NCBI GenBank assembly: GCA_013140565.1
Contig: JABFSP010000211.1
Location: forward strand, 1-38,708
DNA from: Ignavibacteria bacterium
Lineage (GTDB): Bacteria > Bacteroidota > Ignavibacteria > Tepidaquicellales > OLB5
Direction: 5' to 3'
DNA length: 38,708 nucleotides
Position numbers and translations under genes: made by a program. A model generated the notes under the pieces. The model saw nothing but the letters and a program-made list of their open reading frames with translations, ran no database searches and had not been told where the DNA came from. Positions 11,366-27,284 of the stretch are shown here, piece by piece. Position 1 is the stretch's first letter, and each line of letters opens with the position of its first letter.

Positions 11366-12457
11366 TTATCTCTGCAAAAGTTTACGCTGAAGTATTTTGG
11401 TGATACGTTTTGCGGTATTGCCGTCCCAGTATTTCGGAAGTCTGCCTTTCTTATACCGGCCCGCCATTATTTGCCTGAATTTTCTCAGAAGCAGTCCTGT
11501 ATCTGTACCTATAATGGTATTTGTTCCTTCAGTTTCAGTAACCGGGCGCTCGGTGTTTTCCCTCATGGTTAAACACGGCACTTTAAGGTATGTTGATTCT
11601 TCCTGCAGCCCGCCGGAATCGGTGACAACAAGCTTTGCCGTAGATGTGAGCGCTATCGTTTCAATGTAACCTATCGGTTCTGTAAGCAAAATACCGGGGG
11701 TAGAGAAATATTTTTCAAGCTTAAAATCTTTTATCTTCTGTGATGTTCTGGGGTGCACCGGGAAAATAACTTTTACACTTTCTGAAATTTCCCTGATAGC
11801 CCGGGCAAGCCTGCCAAGCACGGCTTTATCATCAACATTTGATGGACGGTGCATGGTTACAAGGCAGAATTCATTTTTCTTAAGTCCGTATTTTTTTAGA
11901 ATATCCTGAGGTTTTGAGCCTTTTATGAATTTTTTAAGTGTATCTATCATAATGTTACCGGTAAAAAAGATCTTCCGCTTATCGATGCCCTCTTTTGCGA
12001 GATTTTTATTCGCATCAGCCGAAGGCGTGAAAAGGTAATCTGAAAGTCTGTCGGTAACAATCCTGTTCACTTCTTCGGGCATTTTTTTATCGTAAGATCT
12101 CAGTCCGGCTTCAACATGCGCCAGCGGAATCACCATCTTTGATGTTACCATTGCCGCGCTCAAAGTTGAATTTACGTCGCCTACCACTATCACAAGTCCG
12201 GGTCTGTTTGCAGTGAAGATATTCTCAAGTCCGGTCATGATCTTCGCCGTTTGCACTGCGTGCGAACCTGAGCCGGATATTATGCTCACATCAGGTTTTT
12301 TGATATTGAGCTCTTTGAAAAAAATATCACTCATTGAACTGTCATAATGCTGCCCCGTATGTATAAGCGTCACATCAAACTGTTTTACTTTCGTTAGTTC
12401 GTTTATCAACGGAGCTATTTTGATAAAATTAGGACGCGCGCCAGCAATGCATGCTAT
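11366..12457 (-). CDS. wecB: UDP-GlcNAc 2-epimerase (WecB family), apparent AUA start
   Basis: Non-hydrolysing UDP-HexNAc 2-epimerase that interconverts UDP-GlcNAc and UDP-ManNAc or their 6-deoxy counterparts. Motifs include LIHTGQHYD, VVGDVNSTLSAA, HVEAGLRSYDKKMPEEVNR, VTMHRPSNVD, VFPVHPRT, VTDSGGLQEE and MRENTERP. The first canonical start codon is TTG at 12409, but that would remove the conserved GARPNFIKIAP segment (family: GTRPEAIK-AP), which is encoded in frame just upstream. No ATG, GTG, TTG or CTG exists between the preceding in-frame stop and 12409. AUA at 12457-12455 sits 5 nt after AGGA and gives a 363-aa protein of normal length. This start is inferred. A sequence error or a damaged gene is the alternative. 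Confidence 0.85.
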   Translation of the reverse strand: MACIAGARPNFIKIAPLINELTKVKQFDVTLIHTGQHYDSSMSDIFFKELNIKKPDVSIISGSGSHAVQTAKIMTGLENIFTANRPGLVIVVGDVNSTLSAAMVTSKMVIPLAHVEAGLRSYDKKMPEEVNRIVTDRLSDYLFTPSADANKNLAKEGIDKRKIFFTGNIMIDTLKKFIKGSKPQDILKKYGLKKNEFCLVTMHRPSNVDDKAVLGRLARAIREISESVKVIFPVHPRTSQKIKDFKLEKYFSTPGILLTEPIGYIETIALTSTAKLVVTDSGGLQEESTYLKVPCLTMRENTERPVTETEGTNTIIGTDTGLLLRKFRQIMAGRYKKGRLPKYWDGNTAKRITKILQRKLLQR

Positions 12458-12466
12458 ATTGATCCT

Positions 12467-12505
12467 GCCGGTCTTTTTTCCGGCTCTCTTTTTTATTTTT
12501 TTCTT
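12467..12505 (+). terminator. terminator-like hairpin plus T-tract, plus orientation
   Basis: Stem GCCGG (12467-12471) pairs with CCGGC (12480-12484) around a T-rich loop. It is followed on the plus strand by TCTC and then long T runs to about 12505. This looks like an intrinsic terminator for leftward-to-rightward transcription, yet all genes here read minus. It lies in the leader of the wecB-like gene and may instead act as a leader hairpin or block antisense transcription. Confidence 0.3.
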
Positions 12506-12519
12506 TATGATATGATATT

Positions 12520-13620
12520 TTATTTTTCTGTATGGACTAAATTTCCATAAATCGCGCTCAGCTTTTTATAATTTTCATCCCAGTCAGCTTTTTGAAGAGC
12601 TAAGCTTAAGTTTGCAGAGCCATGTTCTTCTATCATTGCCCTGTTGTTGTAATATTTATCCAGCGCACCCCTGAGTTCTTCCGCGCTTCCGCGCTTAACT
12701 ATCAGCCCGTTCACTTCAGATACCCATTCCTTTATCGCGGGTACATCCGTCACTATCAGTCCTTTACCGCACGCCATTGCCTCCAGCAATGAAAGTGATG
12801 TGCCGTCACTAAGTGAAGAAGAAACATAAACATCGGCGGCATTCAGAAATGCGGGCAGCTCACTATTTGGCACTCTGCCTAATACCTGTATCTTTTCATC
12901 CAGGTTACTTTCTGTAATGTATCTTAAGGCATCAACCTTACCGGAACCGTCTGAAAGCATTATCATCAGCACATCGTTTTTATCTTTGCAGAAATTACGG
13001 AAAGCATCAAGCAAACAATCAACTCCGTATACCGGCTCAAAATGCCGGTTGAATATAACAATGAATTTATCTTTATCAAGGTTTAACTTCTCGCGGGCGC
13101 TTTGCTTATCAGTTTTTTTAAACTGCTCCAGATCAATTCCCCACGGAAAAACTGTAATCTTTTCAGCCGGTAAACCGTAATCGTCAATGATCTTTTTTTT
13201 CACGAACTCAGCGTCACACTGTACATGGTCGCATGTTCTCATCACTTTCTTCACCAGTAGCCTGCGGATAAAGCTTATATCCGGCTCAGTCAGAATATCA
13301 GAGCCCCACGGCATCGATAGATGCGGGTGGAATCCTGAAATTGCCGTAAGTATGCCAACCTGCCATACGTAACCTGAGTGTATAATATCAGGTTTAAATT
13401 CCTTCACAATCTGTTTAAAATGCGAGCGCTCGCTAAGAAGCGGCATTGAACGGAACGCCGGCTTTTTGGAAATGATCTGCAAATGATCGAGTGAATCAAT
13501 TTCGCTGATAATCTCTCCTGCTGCATAATGCAGGAACAAAACCTCGTGGTCTTCCACAAGTTTTTTCAGGAACCTGTAGTCATGTATCCCGCCATTTGAG
13601 CTAACGTATAGTACCTTCAT
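12520..13620 (-). CDS. GT4-family glycosyltransferase
   Basis: GT-B retaining glycosyltransferase of 366 aa. The N-terminal acceptor domain starts MKVLYVSSNGGIHDYRFL. The middle carries IHSGYVWQVG, PWGSDIL and TVFPWGIDLEQFKK. The donor domain has VIFNRHFEPVYGVDCLLDAF and VYVSSSLSDGTSLSLLEAMACG, the EX7E-type region with Asp in place of the first Glu. It is cytoplasmic and probably adds one residue of the surface glycan. It starts 35 nt after the wecE stop and ends just upstream of the wecB-like gene, consistent with one minus-strand operon. Confidence 0.88.
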   Translation of the reverse strand: MKVLYVSSNGGIHDYRFLKKLVEDHEVLFLHYAAGEIISEIDSLDHLQIISKKPAFRSMPLLSERSHFKQIVKEFKPDIIHSGYVWQVGILTAISGFHPHLSMPWGSDILTEPDISFIRRLLVKKVMRTCDHVQCDAEFVKKKIIDDYGLPAEKITVFPWGIDLEQFKKTDKQSAREKLNLDKDKFIVIFNRHFEPVYGVDCLLDAFRNFCKDKNDVLMIMLSDGSGKVDALRYITESNLDEKIQVLGRVPNSELPAFLNAADVYVSSSLSDGTSLSLLEAMACGKGLIVTDVPAIKEWVSEVNGLIVKRGSAEELRGALDKYYNNRAMIEEHGSANLSLALQKADWDENYKKLSAIYGNLVHTEK

Positions 13621-17223: not shown

Positions 17224-18174
17224 TTACCTGTGAATATCTTTAATAAAATAAAGAGGCCGGTTCTGCACCTGGCTGAATATTTTGGAAAGGTAAATACCTA
17301 TAATACCAAGGCAAAGCGTTATGATGCCCAGTGAAAAACTTATTGATGCAAGAATTGAGGTCCACCCCAGGGAAATTTCATCGGGAAAGAGTATTTTGTT
17401 TATTACTATATACCCCGCAAATGATAAACTGAATAGAGTTATGACAAGCCCCATGTAAAAGATACCTTTCAGCGGCGCGGGTGAAAATGATGTAACTGAA
17501 TTAACCGCAAGTGATATCTTCTTCATGAAAGAATAGTTGCTTCTTCCCTCTCTTTTTATCTTCTTTACCGGTATTCCTCTCTGATCATATCCCAGCCAGT
17601 TCATCATACCTGCAAGAAAAAGATTTTTATCACCCATTTCAAGCAGTGAATCAACATATTTGCGTGAAAGTATTCTTTCGGTAAGTATATTCTTTGATAC
17701 CTTGGTTTCGCTAAGCAAGTTAAATATTTTCCAGAAGAGGTTGCCTGATATTTTTTCGAATGCACCGCCTTTTCTCTGCTCCTGATAGCCATACACAACA
17801 TCGTCTCCGGTCCTCTTTATTTCATCCAGGAAACCTGGCAGAACATCAGGGCTTGTTTCCAGGTCACAATCGATAAGGAATACATAATCGCCTTTTGCGG
17901 CCGAAATACCCGCAAAAAGCGCGTAGTGGTGTCCGAAATTCCTTGAAAGATCTATTATAATTATATGAGGGTAGCTTTTTTTTAATTCGAATAATTTTTC
18001 CAGCGAATTATCCGGCGAGCCGTCATTCACAAAGATAATTTCAAATCTTTCACAGTTTGTATCCTTCAGCGCAGCAGTACATTTGGATAAAAATTCTTCA
18101 AGATACCCGGCTGAATTATATACAGCAGTAACAACACTTATTACAGGATTCTGTATTTCGGTCTTACTGGTTAT
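17224..18174 (-). CDS. GT2 polyprenyl-phosphate glycosyltransferase (ArnC/GtrB-like), apparent AUA start
   Basis: Membrane-bound GT-A enzyme that loads a sugar on undecaprenyl phosphate. Motifs are SVVTAVYNSAGYLEEFL, VNDGSPDNS, DCDLETSPDVLP (DXD region), two C-terminal membrane helices and the tail NRPLYFI. The first canonical start is GTG at 18030, in the middle of the second strand (VNDGS). The 48 codons upstream encode the missing first strand in the same frame with no stop, but also with no ATG, GTG or TTG. AUA at 18174-18172 lies 5 nt after AGGGGG and yields 317 codons including the start, matching the paralogue at 26340-27284. An AUA start is inferred. A base error is possible. Confidence 0.85.
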   Translation of the reverse strand: MTSKTEIQNPVISVVTAVYNSAGYLEEFLSKCTAALKDTNCERFEIIFVNDGSPDNSLEKLFELKKSYPHIIIIDLSRNFGHHYALFAGISAAKGDYVFLIDCDLETSPDVLPGFLDEIKRTGDDVVYGYQEQRKGGAFEKISGNLFWKIFNLLSETKVSKNILTERILSRKYVDSLLEMGDKNLFLAGMMNWLGYDQRGIPVKKIKREGRSNYSFMKKISLAVNSVTSFSPAPLKGIFYMGLVITLFSLSFAGYIVINKILFPDEISLGWTSILASISFSLGIITLCLGIIGIYLSKIFSQVQNRPLYFIKDIHR

Positions 18175-18355
18175 GTTTGCCCCCTGAAAACTTAAAAGAT
18201 ATTAATGTTAGTTACTGTATTTTGTTCACTTCCAGAACTGATTCTGTGTATTAAAATACTAAAATAATGCTATACTATAAAGGTATTTTAAACAAGGTAT
18301 CATAAACGTTAATTAAAGCCGGCTGATAAAATCAACTACGCTGCGTGTTTATTTT

Positions 18356-26339: not shown

Positions 26340-27284
26340 CTAAATGTTTTTAGTCTCTTCTACAATAAATGTCGGGCGTTTTCTGGTCGCATCAAAATTA
26401 CGCCAAAGGTATTCACCCACAATGCCGATACTGAGAAGTATCAGTCCGCCTGTTACAAATATCGCGGCTATCAGCGCCGGTATGCCAAACAGCGGGGCAT
26501 CCATAATAATTTTTCTTAGTATGACGTACAGCGCGAGTAAAAATGCCGGAACCCATGTTAGCATACCTATAAATGAAGCGATCCTCAGCGGTCGGGCAGA
26601 AAACCCGAAGAAAGTATCAAAGGCAAGTTTTAGCCTTTTGAAAAAAGACCATCTGGATTTTCCCAGCTTACGCTCCCTGCGGTGATAGTTCAAAAATCTT
26701 TTACCGAAACCAAGCCATATTATCTGGACCGTTAAGTGAGAGTTCTTCTCGTCCATATCCACCAGTATTTTAGTCTGCTGCTTATTTATCATAAACATAT
26801 CAAATCCCTTTTTGGGATAATCGGGGAGCACAAGCGCGCGGAAGATCTTGTAGAACGCAGCGGAAAATAACTTGGATAAAAATGGATCTGTGCGGCTTTG
26901 CCTTACGCAAAGTACCAGGTCGCGTTTATTGCCAAGCACCCACTCATCATACATTTGCGGTATCAGCTCCGGCGGGTCCTGCAGGTCTGCCGCAAGGAAA
27001 ACCACTGCATCTCCGGTTGCAAAGTTCATTCCGGAAAGTATAGCTACATATGCGCCGTGGTTCTTTGAAAGTTTTACAAGCTTCACCCTGTTATCGGCTG
27101 CCGCAATTTCCTGCATAACGCGGTATGATTCATCTTTGGAACCATCATCAACCAAGATGATCTCGTAATCAAACTTTGCAGAATGTCCGGCGAGGACCCC
27201 GCTTAAAGTGCTGTGGGTTTCCTTCAGGATATCCGCATTGTAATAAACCGGAACTATAACAGAAATTTTATCCAAAATTTTCAA
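26340..27284 (-). CDS. GT2 polyprenyl-phosphate glycosyltransferase (ArnC/DPM1/GtrB-like)
   Basis: A 314-aa membrane enzyme that makes a polyprenyl-phosphate sugar. The GT-A domain has SVIVPVYYNADIL, EIILVDDGSKDES, LSKNHGAYVAILSGM and the metal site LAADLQDPPELIPQM. The basic stretch RRERKLGKSRWSFFKRLKLAFD precedes two membrane helices (ASFIGMLTWVPAFLLALYVIL and IPALIAAIFVTGGLILLSIGIVG). The tail RPTFIVEE is typical of the GtrB/YkcC group. Such a sugar donor would feed ArnT/GT39-type enzymes like the one at 4194-5786. The start is TTG at 27284. It is the first gene of the long minus-strand glycan block. Confidence 0.88.
   Translation of the reverse strand: MKILDKISVIVPVYYNADILKETHSTLSGVLAGHSAKFDYEIILVDDGSKDESYRVMQEIAAADNRVKLVKLSKNHGAYVAILSGMNFATGDAVVFLAADLQDPPELIPQMYDEWVLGNKRDLVLCVRQSRTDPFLSKLFSAAFYKIFRALVLPDYPKKGFDMFMINKQQTKILVDMDEKNSHLTVQIIWLGFGKRFLNYHRRERKLGKSRWSFFKRLKLAFDTFFGFSARPLRIASFIGMLTWVPAFLLALYVILRKIIMDAPLFGIPALIAAIFVTGGLILLSIGIVGEYLWRNFDATRKRPTFIVEETKNI

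Follow-up and report, generated by a model that had tools for sequence, protein, structure and literature searches.

A conserved AUA codon behind a strong Shine–Dalgarno site very probably starts a GT2 glycosyltransferase gene in Ignavibacteria, a lineage in which near-cognate starts recur

The conserved AUA start of a GT2 glycosyltransferase gene in an Ignavibacteria bacterium is very probably real, and starts at AUU, AUC or AUA (together AUH) recur in the lineage, but they are not general there. The gene lies on the minus strand of contig JABFSP010000211.1 (assembly GCA_013140565.1), whose 38,708 nucleotides were analyzed as a whole and are called the window below, and its start is very probably the AUA at positions 18174-18172, to judge from a comparison with related genomes. 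Such a start belongs to an already known kind, that of infC and of the Staphylococcus aureus genes ccpN and citZ; in the literature searched we found no paper on noncanonical starts in Ignavibacteria.

The GT2 frame is open on the minus strand (17224-18201) from a TAA at 18204-18202 to the stop codon at 17226-17224, and the original prediction was right that it offers no ATG, GTG or TTG upstream of a GTG at 18030-18028. This GTG is the earliest canonical codon, and the 48 codons that separate it from ATA 18174-18172 hold not a single one. Ahead of the ATA the sequence reads CAGGGGG-CAAAC-ATA, as had been described, with the Shine–Dalgarno (SD) motif AGGGGG at 18179-18184 predicted to form a 6-bp helix with the anti-SD, a G-U pair included, across a spacer of 5 nt. 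From the AUA to the stop the coding sequence (17224-18174) comprises 316 codons, the 317 first reported being these plus the stop. Read from the ATA, the product matches PF00535 with 108.1 bits (cut-off 23.3) over profile positions 1-142; read from GTG 18030, it scores 75.2 bits and begins only at profile position 34. A start at the GTG, which had correctly been placed inside the GT2 core, would thus cost 48 residues, profile positions 1-33 and the first strand of the fold, and the domain is complete only from the AUA. The paralogue cited in support of this length does exist (26340-27284), but it is a distant one, with 29% identity. Similarity to the polyprenyl-phosphate glycosyltransferases extends over the full length (186 bits for PgfS, NF047588, and 143 bits for ArnC, NF007986), at scores far under the respective equivalog cut-offs of 500 and 529 bits.

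The evidence that carries the assignment comes from a comparison with 59 related genomes, of which a single one, G010, is a sister to the present genome (G000) and represents an independent assembly. Its GT2 orthologue is 94% identical in protein sequence and its leader reads TTTTAAGGGGG-TATCC-ATA-AAC-AGC, so that AAGGGGG-TATCC-ATA is kept there with a predicted SD helix of 8 bp; the nucleotides between SD and AUA differ between the two genomes, whereas the SD and the AUA are the same. The substitutions that separate G000 from G010 fall on the first, second and third codon positions in the numbers 4/2/0 over the eight codons upstream of the AUA, and 0/1/9 over codons 2-30. This change, from a pattern resembling noncoding DNA to one dominated by third positions, takes place at the ATA, and therefore protein coding begins there. 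In both window genes with such a start (the second is treated below), SD, spacing and AUA recur in G010 although the surrounding intergenic DNA has diverged, which makes the pattern exceed chance.

These observations bear directly on the suspicion that the AUA is a base error for a true ATG, an assembly artefact or the mark of a decaying gene. Such an error would require just one A/G difference in what is a draft metagenome assembly of 428 contigs; but AUA and SD are found again, with different nucleotides in between, in the independently assembled G010, and the frame is intact and conserved, with changes mostly at third positions. We regard this explanation as largely refuted and extremely improbable, in keeping with the earlier judgment that a random error is less likely when a second gene of the window behaves alike. 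A start at some other codon, either GTG 18030, one of the further AUA triplets at GT2 codons 7 and 12 (18156 and 18141) or an unrecognized codon a few triplets upstream, is very unlikely as well. Those additional AUA triplets speak for it, but the third-position bias holds from codon 2 onward and the SD spacing fits 18174 only; moreover, the GTG would cut the first GT2 strand, and its counterpart position in G010 is not a canonical start, the first such codon there being a TTG at residue 93 of the open frame.

In the more distant orthologues of G005 (78% identity) and G009 (73%), the gene lacks an SD and has its ATG three codons farther upstream. The AUA with its strong SD, set against AUG orthologues that have none, indicates that the weak start and the SD go together. 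Some 75-120 nt upstream of GT2 in G000 and G010 there is also a conserved inverted repeat of 41 nt, TTAAAATAC ... GTATTTTAA (18251-18291, minus strand), which is nearly identical in G010 and whose first 19 nt are found exactly in G005 and G009. This 19-nt core stands ahead of GT2 only, among 365 loci compared, and the element is probably the promoter or operator of the gene.

The other AUA-started gene of the original prediction is evidently the frame at 11366-12565 on the minus strand, which encodes a WecB-like UDP-GlcNAc 2-epimerase (TIGR00236, 328.5 bits against a cut-off of 210, scanned from 12463). The coding sequence read from AUA 12457-12455 occupies 11366-12457 and is preceded, 5 nt away, by a weak SD, AGGA (12463-12466), in the arrangement AGGA-TCAAT-ATA (12466-12455). 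In G010, too, there is no canonical start ahead of the conserved core, and AGGA-N5-ATA is kept. By codon position, the substitutions between the two genomes number 3/5/3 in the 20 codons from -66 to -6 and 3/0/13 in codons 2-30; the claim of a second gene with an AUA behind an SD-like site is thus upheld, since the epimerase passes the same sister-species comparison as GT2. The data support a start at AUA 12457, or possibly at an AUC or AUA two codons earlier. This assignment is less certain than that of GT2, because the SD is merely AGGA and because the orthologues begin further upstream, with an ATG about 20 codons away in G006 and about nine in G004. A relative of the epimerase in G009 (locus L154, 57% identical) has no ATG, GTG or TTG from its upstream stop to the conserved core; a CTG is the sole near-cognate codon in that stretch besides the core's own ATA.

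The wider occurrence of AUH starts was surveyed by hexamer coding potential in 734 kb of G000 (582 scored genes) and in 440 kb of a complete relative, G008 (370 genes), and the cases that emerged were then checked in congeners. The first is a LolB-like (LolB1/DUF4292-like) lipoprotein (L181 1828-2638, minus strand; L281-L288), which starts at AUU or AUC in eight genomes behind the near-invariant leader TTTAGAGAGGAAA; in two genomes it has a GTG start and the SD is lost. The gene thereby repeats the relation seen in GT2, with AUU or AUC where there is an SD and GTG where there is none. Orthologues of this lipoprotein occur outside the genus as well. A solute-binding (SBP_bac_5) lipoprotein (L248 1082-2774, plus strand) has a signal peptide that begins with ATT ATT AAA AAG in four genomes; this sequence has no SD and in two of the four lies immediately 3' of a stop codon, and the start is less certain. 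Finally, a membrane glycosyltransferase-like protein (L260 11568-13125, plus strand), whose match to the LA_3751 family is weak, has AACAGGA...ATT ATT in four genomes and ATG or TTG in others.

Besides these, infC (L051-L064) has an AUH start, be it AUU, AUC or AUA, in every one of the 14 genomes checked, and in most of them an SD precedes it. The unbiased count of AUH starts is two in G000 and one in G008, the window and infC being left out, the latter because its contig had been picked for that gene; the same survey of E. coli gave none in 514 genes (600 kb). This difference is not significant on its own, and every AUH case therefore rests on its own conservation. The survey does work, for it found infC in the positive-control stretch and flagged prfB, which has a frameshift; its sensitivity is partial, as pcnB was not flagged in the E. 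coli control. Most flags proved to be untranslated leaders ahead of a good ATG. Two others were rejected as AUH starts: one in G000 overlaps a tRNA gene (L248 63-519), and one in G008 (L270 6063-6705, minus strand) comes from a metallophosphatase-like gene whose conserved DIHLG motif is interrupted by an in-frame TGA, to be read as either a nonsense mutation or a base error.

Is start selection, then, generally relaxed in this lineage, as was originally proposed on the strength of its frequent TTG starts? The TTG starts are indeed frequent: among 333 clear starts in the 734 kb of G000 there are 251 ATG, 75 TTG and seven GTG, a TTG share that may be somewhat inflated as the first in-frame start was taken. 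An altered IF3, initiator tRNA or ribosome that made AUA a routine start would accord with these and with the several genes besides infC that have conserved AUH starts, and the changed decoding of AUA, with TilS lost and a tRNA-Ile(UAU) present, as described below, counts in its favor. Yet an in-frame codon scan of the same stretches of G000 (734 kb) and G008 (440 kb) revealed no significant excess of AUA or AUH behind SD-like sites in the former and none in the latter: 10.0% of AUH codons against 7.0% of all codons stand behind such sites in G000, and 2.6% against 5.1% in G008. The initiator tRNA has its usual features (a first-pair mismatch, a GGG/CCC anticodon stem and the anticodon CAU), and an alteration of it was rejected. 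IF3 gives a normal match to PF00707, and the AUH start of its own gene in every genome checked suggests that the factor still discriminates against such starts; most genes, moreover, start with ATG. We therefore consider general relaxation unlikely and do not uphold the proposal: what the lineage shows is a limited number of conserved starts at near-cognate codons, the majority of which have an SD, and its genetic system is not an AUA-tolerant one.

The decoding of AUA within genes appears to set this lineage apart. TilS (TIGR02432) was not found in any of the 44 genomes of the order (G000-G043; best score 28 bits), whereas the 14 genomes from other families of the class (G044-G057) all score above 170 bits. 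A tRNA-Ile with the anticodon UAU is present in eight genomes of the genus (L344 1500-1574; L366-L373), and internal AUA codons are apparently read by it, which is rare among bacteria. No causal tie between this decoding and the AUA starts need be assumed, given that AUU and AUC account for most of the other near-cognate starts. It is a rather doubtful conjecture that this TilS-less order with tRNA-Ile(UAU) controls translation through its conserved AUH starts, in a manner shared with IF3, and so keeps low and co-ordinated the output of a group of envelope genes, namely GT2, the WecB-like epimerase, the LolB-like and solute-binding lipoproteins and the membrane glycosyltransferase.

For GT2 itself, translation from AUA 18174-18172 by ordinary means is highly probable. 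The strong SD AGGGGG would hold the 30S subunit at the AUA, the fMet initiator tRNA (CAU) would start there despite the third-position mismatch, the product would begin with Met, the AUA would keep the output low, and initiation would probably be sensitive to IF3, as for infC. Against this reading count the rarity of long SD sites in G000 (an SD helix of at least 6 bp in just 24 of 333 genes), the fact that Bacteroidota otherwise largely ignore the SD, the absence of a significant genome-wide AUH excess and the restriction of the AUA form to two genomes, G000 and G010. In E. coli and S. aureus, infC starts at AUU or AUA and is subject to autoregulation by IF3. GT2 resembles it in having a near-cognate AUH start behind an SD, as does the infC of this lineage; unlike infC, GT2 is not a translation factor, and a direct feedback loop is not to be expected. 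Further parallels are found in S. aureus, where AUA starts with extended SD motifs have been documented for ccpN, citZ and infC, and an AUU start for cvfC1 (PMC13009471). According to the same paper, reporters of ccpN, citZ and cvfC1 gave about 10% of the AUG output in poor medium, and in rich medium that of ccpN rose to as much as 30%. As in ccpN and citZ, the AUA of GT2 is conserved between species and has a long SD helix, and low output is expected; unlike those cases, established by ribosome profiling and reporters in an SD-reliant phylum, GT2 is known by sequence comparison, and from the Ignavibacteria of the Bacteroidota.

Gene callers that admit only ATG, GTG and TTG shorten such proteins: GT2 would lose its first strand, and the two lipoproteins would be stripped of their signal peptides. 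The reciprocity displayed by GT2 and the LolB-like gene, AUH with an SD against ATG or GTG without, amounts to an experiment of nature in which the compensation of a weak start by an SD can be followed, and this in a phylum where SD sites are for the most part ignored. That conserved AUH starts are not confined to infC suggests that low, IF3-sensitive expression may be in wider use than the few cases known so far.
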